64,000 nucleotides of DNA from Blattabacterium cuenoti (GCF_014251755.1 NZ_CP059200.1:384746-448745); one strand, 5' to 3'; numbered from the stretch's first letter, positions 30,701-55,484 are shown. The notes: a model not told the origin generated them from the sequence alone. A program made the numbers and translations.

Positions 30701-30808
30701 ATGACTTTTTGTCATAAAAAACTTTTTTTATGAAAGCTTTTTATTGTCATACTTTTTCTTCCCTTTATTTATATAGGGTTTTATTTTCATTATGGCATAA
30801 TGATTGGA
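30701..30808 (+). promoter_or_regulatory. dnaK upstream region: inverted repeats and a sigma-54-like box
   Basis: Three elements lie in the dnaK leader. ATGACTTTTTGTCAT (30701-30715) is an inverted repeat containing half-sites also present before groESL. A second inverted repeat (30712-30733) has 10-base arms TCATAAAAAA and TTTTTTATGA. Then TGGCATAATGATTGGA (30793-30808) has GG at the -24 position but GG instead of GC at -12. The -24 position lies 55 bases before the dnaK ATG, against 53 at groES. Suggestive, weaker than the groES case. Confidence 0.35.
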
Positions 30809-30849: not shown

Positions 30850-32754
30850 ATGAGTAAAATTATAGGCATAGATTTAGGAACAACAAATTCTTGTGTCGCT
30901 GTTATGGAAATTAATGATCCTGTTGTAATTCCTAATTCAGAAGGGAAAAGAACAACTCCATCTATAGTAGCCTTCGTAGAAGGAGGTGAAAGAAAAATAG
31001 GAGATCCTGCAAAAAGGCAAGCTGTTACCAATCCGCAAAAAACTATTTTTTCTATCAAAAGATTTATGGGAAGAATGTATTCAGAAGTTACTGAAGAATT
31101 GAAACATATTCCTTATAAAGTTATAAAAGGAGGAAACAATACTCCACGTGTTGATATAGAAAAAAGATTATACGCTCCCCAAGAAATATCTGCAATGATT
31201 TTACAAAAAATGAAAAAAACAGCGGAAGATTACTTGGGAGAAGAAGTTAACAGAGCCGTGATTACAGTTCCTGCTTATTTTAATGATGCACAAAGACAAG
31301 CCACTAAAGAATCTGGAGAAATAGCAGGATTAAAAGTAGAAAGAATTATAAATGAACCAACGGCAGCTGCTTTAGCTTATGGATTAGATAAAAGTAATCA
31401 GAATAAAAAAATTGTTGTATATGATTTAGGAGGCGGGACTTTTGACGTTTCTATTCTAGAATTAGGAGATGGAGTTTTTGAAGTTTTATCTACTAATGGA
31501 GATACTCACTTAGGAGGAGATGATTTTGATCAAGTTATCATTAACTATTTGTCAAATAAATTTAAGTCGAAAGAAGGATTAGATCTTAGAAAGGATCCTA
31601 TGGCCTTACAACGTTTAAAAGAAGCATCTGAAAAAGCTAAAATAGAATTATCTTCTTCAAATCAAACAGAAATAAATCTTCCTTATATCACAGCAACAGA
31701 ATCAGGACCTAAACATTTAGTTTTAACCTTAATTCGTTCAAAATTTGAACAATTATCAGAACCGTTAATACAAAGATCCATTAATCCTTGTTCTAAAGCA
31801 TTAAAAGATGCAAGTTTAACAACGCAAGACATAGATGAGGTCATTTTGGTTGGAGGATCTACACGTATTCCAAAAGTACAAGAGGAAGTAGAAAAATTTT
31901 TTGGTAAAAAACCATCTAAAGGAGTTAATCCAGATGAAGTTGTCGCTATTGGAGCGGCTATACAAGGAGGAGTATTAACGGGAGATGTACAAAACGTATT
32001 ATTATTAGATGTGACTCCTTTATCTTTAGGAATTGAAACTTTAGGAGGAGTTTTTACAAAACTTATTGAGTCTAATACAACCATTCCTACTAAAAAATCA
32101 GAAATTTTTTCTACAGCATCTGATAATCAATCAGCAGTAACTATACGAGTAGGACAAGGTGAAAGACCTATGTTCAATGATAATAAAGAAATAGGTCGTT
32201 TTGATTTAGTTGATATTCCTTCAGCACCTAGAGGAATTCCTCAAATTGAGGTTACTTTTGATATAGATGCAAATGGTATACTTAATGTTTCCGCAAAAAA
32301 TAAAGGAACAGGAAAAGAACAATCAATACGTATTGAAACCTCATCAGGATTAAATCAAAATGAAATAGAAAAAATGAAAAAAGAGGCAAAAGAAAATGCT
32401 AAAAAAGATGAAAAAATCAAAAAAGAAATCGAAAAATTAAATGCAGCAGATAATCAAATTTTTCAATCTGAAAAACAATTGAAAGATTATGAAAATAAAT
32501 TATCTGAAAATAATAAGAAAAATATAGAAGATTCTTTAGAAAAATTGAAACAAGCTCATTCTAAAAAAGATTTTGTTTCTATTGATAATTATATGAAAAA
32601 ACTAAACGAAGCTTGGACTAATGCTTCTCAAGAAATTTATAACATAAAAAATACAAATAAAAACAATCAATCAAATAAAAAAGAAGATGAAGAAAAAAGA
32701 AATAGCAAAGGAAATGAAAATATACAAGATGTAGATTATGAAGAAGTAAAATAA
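30850..32754 (+). CDS. dnaK: Chaperone protein DnaK (Hsp70)
   Basis: The ATP-dependent Hsp70 chaperone. From the ATG at 30850 it has 634 residues, starting [16 protein letters not shown]. The ATPase domain (about 1-380) has [12 protein letters not shown] and [11 protein letters not shown]; the linker [17 protein letters not shown] leads to the substrate domain; the acidic end (DVDYEEVK) is kept. The frame opens 6 codons earlier (30832), but the family start favours 30850. It stands alone on the plus strand with an elaborate upstream region; neither grpE nor dnaJ is adjacent. Confidence 0.97.
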
Positions 32755-49954: not shown

Positions 49955-49972
49955 TATGTCATAATGACATTA
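49955..49972 (+). promoter_or_regulatory. Perfect palindrome upstream of the miaB/sigma-54 activator operon
   Basis: TATGTCATAATGACATTA contains the perfect palindrome ATGTCATAATGACAT (49956-49970). The identical 18 bases occur at 53385-53402 before groESL. Its centre lies 44 bases before the miaB ATG, where a promoter would be expected, so it may be an operator for autoregulation. No -24/-12 element is visible here. Confidence 0.65.
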
Positions 49973-50006
49973 TGTATTTTTATTCGTTATGATTAAAAAA
50001 ATGTAA

Positions 50007-51356
50007 ATGAAATATAAAAATTTTTATATAGAAAATTATGGTTGTCAAATGAACATATCAGATAGTGATATTATCACTTCTATTTTGTTGAATCATGGTT
50101 TTGTTCTATCTGAAAACTTAGATCAAGCAAATATAATATTATTAAACGCTTGTTCTATTCGAGAAAAAGCAGAATTAACCCTAAAAAAAAGATTAGAACA
50201 ATTAAATTTTTGTAAAAAAAAGAAAAAAATATGGATTGGAATTATAGGATGTTTTTCAAAAGAAATTCAAAATTTTTTTTGTACCAAAAAAATGGTAGAT
50301 TTTTTTATTCCTCCAGATTCTTATAGAGAAATCCCTAATTTTATTTATTATTCTATAATGGGAATGCAGTATCTTTCTTATCTTAAGAAAAGAAATGAAA
50401 CTTATGCGGATATAAGTTTTGTAAAGACAAAACAAAATAACAAAAAAATAACATCCTTTTTAAGTATAACAAGAGGTTGTAATAATATGTGTACATTTTG
50501 TATCGTTCCTTTTACCAGAGGAAGAGAAAGAAGCAGTGATCCCAATTCCATTATTAAGGAATGTAAACGTTTATATCAAAATGGATATAAAGAAGTAACT
50601 CTTTTAGGACAAAATGTAGATTCTTACCTATGGATAGAAGAAAAAAACATGAATCAAAATCAAAAAAAGGTTGTAGATTTTTCAAAACTTTTGGATCTTT
50701 TAGCCAAAGAAATCCCGATGATGAGAATTAGATTTTCTACATCTAATCCTCATGATATGTCTAATAAAGTACTAGAAGTTATTTCTAAACATAAGAATAT
50801 ATGTAAACATATTCATCTACCTGTACAATCTGGTAGTAACAAAATATTAAAATTAATGAATAGAAAATATACACGAGAAGAATATCTCTTTTTGGTACAA
50901 CAAATAAAAAACATTATACCTGAATGTTCTATTTCTCATGATATTATTGCTGGATTTTGTGATGAAAATGAACAAGATCATCAGGATACCATAAATTTAA
51001 TGAATGAAATAAAATATAATTATGGTTATATGTTTTCCTATTCTCCTAGACCTGGAACTTATGCTTACAGAAAATTAAAGGACAATGTTCCTCAACATAT
51101 AAAAAAAAAACGACTACAAGAGATCATTGATTTACAAAGAAAACATTCATTTTATAGAATGCAAGAACATTTAGGTAGAGTAGAAGAAATTCTAATAGAA
51201 GGAGAATCAAAAAAAAATAATCAATATTGGTATGGAAGAAATACACAAAATTTGATCGTAGTTTTACCTAAAAATCTTCTCAAGATAGGAGATTACGCTC
51301 ATGTAAAAATAACAAACACAACATCTGCAACTTTAATAGGAGAACTTTACATATGA
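50007..51356 (+). CDS. miaB: tRNA-2-methylthio-N6-dimethylallyladenosine synthase
   Basis: A radical-SAM methylthiotransferase for adenosine 37 of tRNA. It has 449 residues: an N-terminal UPF0004 domain with cysteines C13, C49 and C82 for the auxiliary cluster, radical-SAM cysteines C158, C162 and C165 (RGCNNMCTFC), and a C-terminal TRAM domain. It is the first gene of an operon with the sigma-54 activator 19 bases downstream. Confidence 0.96.
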   Translation: MKYKNFYIENYGCQMNISDSDIITSILLNHGFVLSENLDQANIILLNACSIREKAELTLKKRLEQLNFCKKKKKIWIGIIGCFSKEIQNFFCTKKMVDFFIPPDSYREIPNFIYYSIMGMQYLSYLKKRNETYADISFVKTKQNNKKITSFLSITRGCNNMCTFCIVPFTRGRERSSDPNSIIKECKRLYQNGYKEVTLLGQNVDSYLWIEEKNMNQNQKKVVDFSKLLDLLAKEIPMMRIRFSTSNPHDMSNKVLEVISKHKNICKHIHLPVQSGSNKILKLMNRKYTREEYLFLVQQIKNIIPECSISHDIIAGFCDENEQDHQDTINLMNEIKYNYGYMFSYSPRPGTYAYRKLKDNVPQHIKKKRLQEIIDLQRKHSFYRMQEHLGRVEEILIEGESKKNNQYWYGRNTQNLIVVLPKNLLKIGDYAHVKITNTTSATLIGELYI

Positions 51357-51375
51357 TATAAAAAAAAATAAAAAC

Positions 51376-52629
51376 ATGGAATCCATTTCTATCCAAAATA
51401 TAAAACAAAAATTTGGAATCATTGGATATGATTATGCTTTGCATAGAGCCTTAGAAAAGGCAATACAAGTAGCAACTACTGATATTTCAGTATTAGTTCT
51501 TGGAGAAAGTGGAGTGGGAAAAGAATTTATACCCAAAATAATTCATCAATATTCTTCTAGAAAACATCATACTTATATTGCCGTAAATTGTGGAGCTATT
51601 CCAGAAGGAACTATTGATAGTGAACTTTTCGGACATGAAAAGGGTTCTTTTACAGGAGCTACAAGTATGCGAAAAGGTTATTTTGAAGGATCGAATGGGG
51701 GTACTATTTTTTTAGATGAAGTAGGAGAACTCCCATTAACCACGCAAGTTCGTCTTCTTAGGATATTGGAATATGGAGAATTTATTAAAGTAGGATCTTC
51801 TAAAATTCAAAAAACTAATATCCGTATTGTTGCTGCTACTAATTTGAATATAGTAGAGTCTATTCAAAAAGGAAAATTTAGAGAAGATTTGTATTATCGT
51901 TTAAATACAGTACAAATTAATGTACCTCCTTTACGTTTTCGTAAAAACGATATTAAATTTTTATTCAAAAAATTTTCCAATGATTTTTCAGAAAAATATC
52001 ATATGCCTTCTATAACATTGACTGAAGATTCTTTAAAATATTTGGAAAATTATCCTTGGCCTGGTAATATCAGACAATTAAAAAATTTAATAGAACAAAT
52101 CTCTGTAGTGGAACCTACACGTGAAATTTCTATAGAAAAATTAAAAGAATATATTCCAGAAAATATTCCATCGATATCCTTTTCTAATCATAATAATAAT
52201 GTAATAGAAACAAGATCTTTTCATGAGAGAGAAAAAGATTTTTTATACAAAATTTTATTTGATATGAAAAAAAATTTGAATGATTTAAAAAATATTACTT
52301 TTCAATTGATTAAAAATAATTCTAATACTAGATTTATTGAAAAAAATCAACATCTTATAGAAAAAGTTTTTGGAAAAATGATTCATAACAGGGATGATTC
52401 TATTTTTCAATTAGAAGATTCATCTAAATCCTCTTCGGATTTAGATTATGAAGAAGTAGAAGAAGATTTATCCAAAAATGAATTTTCTTCTTTTTCTTTA
52501 CAAAAAAAAGAAATAGAATTTATTCAACAAGCTTTAAAAAAAAATAATGGAAAAAGAAGAAAAGCTGCAAAAGAATTAGGAATTTCAGAAAGAACATTAT
52601 ACAGAAAAATTAAACAGTATGGCTTATAA
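51376..52629 (+). CDS. Sigma-54-dependent transcriptional activator without sensor domain
   Basis: A bacterial enhancer-binding protein of 417 residues. It opens directly with the AAA+ domain: Walker A GESGVGKE at 43-50, the sigma-54 contact loop GSFTGA at 90-95, Walker B GTIFLDEVGE near 109-118, and YPWPGNIRQL near 228. A long acidic linker (about 265-370) leads to a Fis-type helix-turn-helix at 375-417 (RRKAAKELGISERTLYRKI). There is no receiver, PAS or GAF domain, so activity must be set by its level or a partner. It is the only such activator seen in the window. Confidence 0.93.
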   Translation: MESISIQNIKQKFGIIGYDYALHRALEKAIQVATTDISVLVLGESGVGKEFIPKIIHQYSSRKHHTYIAVNCGAIPEGTIDSELFGHEKGSFTGATSMRKGYFEGSNGGTIFLDEVGELPLTTQVRLLRILEYGEFIKVGSSKIQKTNIRIVAATNLNIVESIQKGKFREDLYYRLNTVQINVPPLRFRKNDIKFLFKKFSNDFSEKYHMPSITLTEDSLKYLENYPWPGNIRQLKNLIEQISVVEPTREISIEKLKEYIPENIPSISFSNHNNNVIETRSFHEREKDFLYKILFDMKKNLNDLKNITFQLIKNNSNTRFIEKNQHLIEKVFGKMIHNRDDSIFQLEDSSKSSSDLDYEEVEEDLSKNEFSSFSLQKKEIEFIQQALKKNNGKRRKAAKELGISERTLYRKIKQYGL

Positions 52630-53101
52630 AAAAATTTTTTTTGTTTTTATTTTTACATTTTTTATGATAATTAGTTGTTATCATTCATCTTTTGATGAAA
52701 AGAAGACAATAGAAATAGGAGAAATTTCAGAACAAGTTAATATACCTAGAAGATCCATTTCCTTTGATTTTAAAAAAAGTATTGAAGATTATATAATGAA
52801 ACATAATCCTTCTAATTTAGTCTTAAAAAATGGAGATGTTGTTTTACAATGTGTATTTTTACATTATGCAATTATTCCATTAGAAAATGATCCTTTGAAA
52901 AAAATCAAAGTAACAGCAAAAATATCTTACATAGATAAATCTGAACCAGAAAAAAGTTGGGAAAAATCTTTTGTCGTATCTGAAGTCTTTCCTAAAAATA
53001 AAAAAGATCTTTTTTCAAAAGAAATTATTGATAAAATTATAGAAAAATTAACAATTCAAGTATATCATAAAATATTTTATGATTTCGATAATAACTGGTA
53101 A
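52619..53101 (+). CDS. LptE-family outer-membrane lipoprotein
   Basis: A 160-residue protein with a lipoprotein signal: a basic start, a hydrophobic stretch and a lipobox ending IISC (Cys20). The rest (LVLKNGDVVLQCVFLHYAI and VEV-like beta strands) resembles the Bacteroidota LptE group that sits at this site in relatives. LptE proteins help insert lipopolysaccharide; whether this cell makes any is unknown from the window. It overlaps the activator gene by 11 bases. Confidence 0.75.
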   Translation: MAYKKIFFVFIFTFFMIISCYHSSFDEKKTIEIGEISEQVNIPRRSISFDFKKSIEDYIMKHNPSNLVLKNGDVVLQCVFLHYAIIPLENDPLKKIKVTAKISYIDKSEPEKSWEKSFVVSEVFPKNKKDLFSKEIIDKIIEKLTIQVYHKIFYDFDNNW

Positions 53102-53116
53102 ATAAATAATAGATAA

Positions 53117-53365
53117 ATGGAAAACATGTCATTTATAATCATATTTGGTTTTTTTATTATTTTAACATGTATTTTACTTATGCTGGTTATATTAATACAA
53201 AATCCTAAAAAAGAAAGTATTCATCAATCTTTTATGGAAAAAAATTTTAGATTTTTTGGAATTAAAAGAACAAATACATTTTTAGAAAATATTACTTGGA
53301 TTTTATCCATTATTATATTTTTTTTGATTTTATTCTTCAATTTTTTACTAAAATCAAGACATTGA
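53117..53365 (+). CDS. secG: Protein translocase subunit SecG
   Basis: A small Sec accessory protein of 82 residues. Two membrane helices (about 4-26 and 58-78) flank a loop with VILIQNPKKE, which is typical for SecG. It lies 15 bases after the LptE-like gene and ends the operon; groESL follow after a regulatory spacer of 131 bases. Confidence 0.88.
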   Translation: MENMSFIIIFGFFIILTCILLMLVILIQNPKKESIHQSFMEKNFRFFGIKRTNTFLENITWILSIIIFFLILFFNFLLKSRH

Positions 53366-53384
53366 ATAATTTGAATAAATTAAA

Positions 53385-53402
53385 TATGTCATAATGACAT
53401 TA
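53385..53402 (+). promoter_or_regulatory. Perfect palindrome upstream of groESL, identical to the miaB site
   Basis: TATGTCATAATGACATTA, identical over 18 bases to 49955-49972, with the palindrome ATGTCATAATGACAT at 53386-53400. Its centre is about 75 bases before the predicted sigma-54 transcription start, a usual distance for an enhancer-binding site. It is the best candidate binding site for the activator at 51376-52629. Confidence 0.65.
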
Positions 53403-53441: not shown

Positions 53442-53457
53442 TGGCATGTTTTTGGCT
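53442..53457 (+). promoter_or_regulatory. Sigma-54-type -24/-12 promoter of groESL
   Basis: TGGCATGTTTTTGGCT fits the sigma-54 consensus TGGCAYR-N4-TTGCW with one mismatch. GG (53443-53444) and GC (53455-53456) have the required 12-base spacing. Transcription would start near 53468, about 30 bases before the groES ATG. No good TAnnTTTG box competes in the spacer. Confidence 0.55.
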
Positions 53458-53496: not shown

Positions 53497-53775
53497 ATGG
53501 TGGAAATAAAGATCAAACCTCTAGCAGATCGCGTTCTTGTACAACCTGATCCTGCTGAAAACAAAACAGTTTCAGGTATTATTATTCCTGATACAGCAAA
53601 AGAAAAACCACAAAAAGGAACAATAATTGCCGTAGGAAAAGGAAAAAAAGATGAACCTATGAATCTAAAAAAAGGAGACAGAGTTTTGTATGGTAAATAT
53701 TCTGGTACAGAATTGAAATGGGAAGGAGAAGAATATCTTATTATGCGAGAATCCGATGTAATCGCTATCATATGA
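53497..53775 (+). CDS. groES: Co-chaperonin GroES
   Basis: The lid of the GroEL chamber. It has 92 residues: [34 protein letters not shown] covers the start and the mobile loop, and [33 protein letters not shown] ends it. It starts the groES-groEL pair, 65 bases before groEL. Confidence 0.98.

Positions 53776-53834: not shown

Positions 53835-55484
<1,650 letters not shown>

Follow-up and report, generated by a model that had tools for sequence, protein, structure and literature searches.

As dimers, sigma-54 activators (EBPs) bind to upstream sites; they then assemble and remodel the sigma-54 polymerase. The closest described example is PspF, the phage-shock activator of Escherichia coli, which combines an AAA+ domain with a Fis-type HTH and lacks an N-terminal regulatory domain. 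From upstream sites it switches on stress genes through sigma-54, and the same sites serve to repress the main-sigma promoter of its own gene. Among flavobacteria, sigma-54 (SM4) promoters have been mapped at groES, grpE-dnaJ, dnaK, htpG and lon of F. psychrophilum. The genes concerned are co-expressed (cluster B254), the orthologous EBP-lptE operon is under an SM5 promoter, and three possible sigma-54 activators were noted, none of them assigned (PMC9723704). Moreover, predicted sigma-54 promoters are enriched before groES, groEL, grpE, dnaJ and dnaK in Planctomycetota and Bacteroidota, with the highest enrichment in Flavobacteriia (PMC12316311).

Our analysis of a 64,000-nucleotide stretch of the Blattabacterium cuenoti genome (hereafter the window) suggests an activator for such promoters. 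It is likely that the EBP encoded next to miaB binds a short conserved box, activates groESL, grpE-dnaJ and dnaK via sigma-54 and holds down the sigma-A promoter of its own operon.

A repeated palindrome and the adjacent sigma-54 activator

The genome is a single contig of 626 kb, and the window corresponds to its positions 384746-448745. As the initial annotation had reported, the 18-mer TATGTCATAATGACATTA occurs in two fully identical copies, 49955-49972 and 53385-53402, whose 15-nt core ATGTCATAATGACAT (49956-49970 and 53386-53400) forms a perfect palindrome. It had also judged that the core would be expected far less than once by chance in the window, and our search agrees: three matches with at most three mismatches were found versus 0.26 expected, and none of 100 shuffles of the window gave three such matches, which places the palindrome far above chance. 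A window match at 30782-30799 before dnaK was rejected as a box, as it represents the dnaK -24 element TTATGGCATAATGATTGG. Genome-wide, the 13-nt core TGTCATAATGACA has exactly three perfect copies, all intergenic, which precede miaB, groES and grpE-dnaJ. The two window sites of the initial annotation are thus real, but the third genome copy, at C1:91653 directly 5' of grpE-dnaJ and followed by the textbook sigma-54 promoter TGGCAAAAATTTTGC, had been missed, as had the dnaK element TGACTTTTTGTCA within the window. Among the ten one-mismatch genome copies of TGNCATNATGNCA, eight lie inside genes, and these are taken as chance.

The features of the window are compiled in Table 1. Pfam confirmed the earlier gene identities of miaB, the sigma-54 activator and GroES. 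The product at the lptE position comprises 160 aa and has no match among the Pfam or NCBIfam models; the ATG of its gene overlaps the stop codon of the EBP.

Table 1. Predicted regulatory elements and genes in the window
Feature	Position	Strand	Remarks
Box TGTCATAATGACA before miaB	49957..49969	.	Predicted operator of the EBP operon, inside palindrome 49956-49970
Candidate sigma-A -7 element TATTTTTA	49975..49982	+	TAnnTTTG-like, 5 bp after miaB box
miaB (tRNA methylthiotransferase)	50007..51356	+	Pfam Radical_SAM, UPF0004, TRAM
Sigma-54 activator (EBP)	51376..52629	+	Pfam Sigma54_activat and HTH_8
Probable lptE, EBP operon	52619..53101	+	Name taken from the gene order in PMC9723704 Table 2
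secG	53117..53365	+	Pfam SecG
Box TGTCATAATGACA before groES	53387..53399	.	Predicted upstream activating site
groESL sigma-54 (-24/-12) promoter TGGCATGTTTTTGGCT	53442..53457	+	55 bp after box start
groES	53497..53775	+	Pfam Cpn10
groEL	53841..55484	+	ORF and sequence
Box variant TGACTTTTTGTCA before dnaK	30702..30714	.	91 bp before -24 element
dnaK sigma-54 promoter TGGCATAATGATTGGA	30793..30808	+	Conserved in genus
dnaK	30850..32700	+	HSP70 family match; end is that of the query stretch, gene runs slightly further

The EBP matches PF00158 (E=1.2e-64), with the AAA+ sigma-54 domain starting at residue 15, has no N-terminal regulatory domain and carries a C-terminal Fis-type HTH (PF02954 at 380-415). 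Its Walker motif GESGVGKE and the loop G[AS]FTGA (GSFTGA in this genome) are conserved, and across nine EBP representatives the HTH is nearly invariant and the linker variable. PDB matches of the protein are FleQ, NtrC and PspF, and none of the NCBIfam models among the matches listed reached its cut-off. RpoN (PF04552) was found in 41 of the 41 sampled Blattabacterium genomes, each of which also gave exactly one EBP match; free-living relatives often give several. Two fragmented assemblies (G143 and G098) gave no EBP match, yet their sigma-54 promoters and half-sites resemble those of their congeners, so that the missing EBP is probably an assembly gap. The features expected of a bEBP were thus found at the sequence level: AAA+/GAFTGA, a Fis-type HTH, RpoN in the genome and conserved sites upstream of -24/-12 promoters.

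Conservation of the box and its phasing to chaperone promoters

Orthologous positions in Blattabacterium carry TGTCATAATGACA, TGACATAATGTCA, TGCCATAATGGCA and mixtures of these, from which the fixed letters TGNCA-N3-TGNCA follow. The palindrome is best read as one form of this conserved 13-bp box, which is found order-wide in Flavobacteriales. At groES, a box with at least seven of the eight fixed bases is present in 43 of 45 Blattabacteriaceae loci, a minimum, as one of the two remaining loci has a box that was missed through start-codon placement. All eight fixed bases occur at miaB in 31/45 loci, a few of the others being truncated at miaB; about ten Blattabacterium loci are without a miaB box. 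For grpE, about 32 of the 41 Blattabacterium genomes gave a box together with a promoter (nine grpE loci gave no such pair), and the box lies 24-26 bp before the TGG in nearly all. The dnaK element TGACTTTTTGTCA or a near variant is present in 21/21 Blattabacterium genomes examined; dnaK also has a sigma-54 promoter, TGGCATAATGATTG, and the distance of the element is more variable here (70-120 bp). The sequence TGGCAYRNNNNTKGCWT has one exact match in the genome, which is the groESL promoter, and a groESL sigma-54 promoter is present in nearly all Blattabacterium loci.

Several Blattabacterium lineages without an intact miaB box mostly still have the groES box, although some of these loci are truncated, and the feedback site has apparently been lost in several lineages. 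In a 345-kb genome of another genus of the same family (G056), the EBP is kept despite far stronger reduction, a box (TGACATTATGTCA) lies 36 bp before the groES -24 element, a grpE box is also present, and there is no box before miaB. A perfect TGNCA-N3-TGNCA copy in the B. cuenoti genome, TGACATATTGTCA, is located at C1:141213-141225, in an intergenic region flanked on one side by a ribonucleotide reductase small-subunit-like gene and on the other by a divergent plsC-like gene. Near this copy, which is possibly a fourth target or a chance occurrence, we noticed no sigma-54 promoter.

In genomes of other Flavobacteriales families, TGNCA-N{k}-TGNCA is enriched at k=3 upstream of groES (20/46), grpE (19/39) and dnaK (20/39), compared with shuffle means of about 0.2 and a maximum of 2. 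Secondary peaks at k=12 for grpE and groES arise, at least in part, where the second half-site pairs with the TGGCA of the -24 element. The miaB box is present in 24 of 26 non-Blattabacteriaceae genomes and, in a second set of 80 named genomes that is independent of the motif definition, in 77 of 79 named Flavobacteriaceae. The same set has the groES box in 48 of 76 genomes, and genomes of either set without a perfect groES box show half-sites or mismatches. The groES box of many free-living Flavobacteriales forms part of an apparent secG terminator stem (TGCCAGC...GCTGGCA followed by a T-run), and it looks as if terminator and operator share sequence there. Because of this overlap, the groES counts may be partly inflated in several free-living genomes; the grpE, dnaK and miaB counts are unaffected.

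Conservation at miaB and groES, which the initial annotation had proposed to seek in related genomes, thus holds across Blattabacterium and Flavobacteriales. Its concern that the sequence might also appear at unrelated places such as inside genes is not borne out: in the miaB-to-EBP coding sequence, which served as a control, the box is nearly absent, with a single copy over 116 kb of the 26-genome set and none over 225 kb of the named Flavobacteriaceae. The circuit that it had considered for cockroach symbionts would not be specific to them; it would be order-wide and also include grpE-dnaJ and dnaK.

The variation among orthologous sites also bears on whether the palindrome might work in RNA, as a hairpin, a terminator or an mRNA element. 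Although ATGTCA-TAA-TGACAT could make a 6-bp stem, many of the orthologous sites lack the inverted repeat (TGACAattTGACA, TGTCAattTGTCA), the window copies are not followed by a T-run, and the sites at the chaperone genes are located 5' of the promoters. Since orthologous boxes are often direct repeats, we reject an RNA hairpin or terminator, and a role in RNA is very improbable.

The distances from the chaperone boxes to the TGG of the sigma-54 promoters fall at 25, 35-36, 45-47, 55-57, 67-68, 75-78 and 89 bp. At a period of 10.5 bp, the resultant length is R=0.93 for 58 sites and R=0.87 for the 23 distinct distances, the Blattabacterium dnaK element being left out of this test, and 0 of 20000 random distance sets reached the value for the distinct distances. 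For groES of the named set, the distinct-value p is about 1e-4. As sites inherited from a common ancestor lack independence, these p-values are indicative only; the stronger point is that genes and sets agree in phase, which is about 4 nt modulo 10.5 both for the named set and for groES of Blattabacterium. Chance or local duplication might have given two equal 18-mers in an AT-rich genome, and the window does hold only two copies, with AT-rich flanks. However, the conserved position, the orthologous variants, the spacer specificity and the phasing across many families of the order refute this reading, which we regard as extremely improbable.

The phased box upstream of a sigma-54 promoter, together with the single EBP, supports the activation of groESL by the activator that the initial annotation had suggested. 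A different regulator, for example a heat-shock repressor, could use the box as its operator, with the EBP acting without the box or elsewhere. Binding of the EBP to the box is inferred from sequence, and the grpE box, at 25 bp, is near the polymerase: only some 20 bp separate its centre from the -24 element, and typical EBP sites are farther away. A constant phase and a position 55-90 bp before a sigma-54 promoter, however, suit an activator and not a repressor, and in those 77 of 79 genomes the EBP's own operon carries the box. The CIRCE element of HrcA (TTAGCACTC-N9-GAGTGCTAA) was rejected as a candidate, as it has no match with up to three mismatches within the window. Such a regulator is therefore unlikely, and we favour the EBP as the binder of the box.

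The miaB promoter and a proposed autorepressed circuit

The arrangement at miaB differs from that at the chaperone genes. In every box-bearing genome of the 26-genome set and in 76/77 named Flavobacteriaceae (mode 18 in the latter), the miaB box is followed at a distance of no more than 20 bp by TAnnTTTG, the sigma-A -7 consensus as given in PMC9723704, so that the -33 region falls within the box. The -7 element of Blattabacterium is weaker (TAnnTTTA, with A for G) and lies 5-11 bp after the box, a spacing which differs from that of the free-living relatives. Reading of the miaB sequences, rather than a separate scan, showed no -24/-12 promoter. With a sigma-A-type promoter under the box and no sign of one for sigma-54, the autoregulation at miaB would probably be negative, and the arrangement probably points to autorepression by the EBP. 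The autoregulation suggested by the initial annotation is retained in that the box is conserved at this site; its sign would be that of a repressor.

With the same binder and targets, the miaB box might instead be activating, and the EBP would stimulate its own operon, a reading for which the wording of the initial annotation leaves room. Positive autoregulatory loops exist among EBPs, which supports this reading, as does the conservation of the miaB box. It is nevertheless improbable, since no -24/-12 promoter was seen there, the TAnnTTTG at most 20 bp downstream places the box over the -33 region and, to our knowledge, EBPs are not known to open the sigma-A polymerase.

In the autorepressed circuit that we prefer, a dimer of the EBP's Fis-type HTH would bind TGNCA-N3-TGNCA. 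At groESL, grpE-dnaJ and dnaK, the bound EBP would keep to one side of the helix with respect to the promoter, from where it could contact and remodel the RNA polymerase-sigma-54 at the -24/-12 promoter and thereby switch on the chaperones. At miaB, where the box overlaps the main-sigma promoter (-33/-7), binding would limit EBP synthesis, as in PspF. The signal to the EBP would presumably be protein-folding stress. More tentatively, the core heat-shock and chaperone response of Flavobacteriales may be run by one dedicated PspF-like EBP with autorepression, which would represent the last sigma-54 circuit of cockroach symbionts, kept at 0.6 Mb, and which might sense folding stress directly, e.g. 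by chaperone titration on the linker.

Comparison with known systems

The proposed circuit names one activator, a 13-bp box and target promoters, all predicted, for the published flavobacterial sigma-54 chaperone promoters, and its predicted feedback loop is testable in any tractable Flavobacterium. Endosymbiont genomes of 0.6 Mb are thought to depend on chaperones, and chaperone control is a possible reason why RpoN and one EBP are kept in them. Within the open-licence literature, we found no report of the box, the cognate EBP or the feedback loop, and no paper pairing Blattabacterium with 'sigma-54'.

Heat-shock control by sigma-32 or HrcA/CIRCE concerns the same chaperone genes and likewise relies on one stress regulator, whereas here an EBP would act with sigma-54, and the window has no CIRCE. 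For the SM4 regulon of F. psychrophilum, we found no named activator, of which there may be several, and no box, phasing or feedback described (PMC9723704), and the predictions across Planctomycetota and Bacteroidota concern promoters only, with no enhancer site in the text (PMC12316311).

PspF is the nearest parallel. The EBP described here shares with it the AAA+ domain, the Fis-type HTH and the lack of an N-terminal regulatory domain, and the PspF model TIGR02974 matches its residues 15-415. However, it is not PspF, because this match reaches 275 bits versus a cut-off of 443.55, and its score for NF008622 is 214 versus a cut-off of 529. Moreover, its predicted targets are GroESL, GrpE-DnaJ and DnaK rather than PspA, it has an extra linker of about 115 residues before the HTH, and its gene lies in an operon with miaB, lptE and secG. 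In position, the miaB box, at most 20 bp before TAnnTTTG in nearly all box-bearing genomes, would fit the autoregulatory arrangement of PspF.
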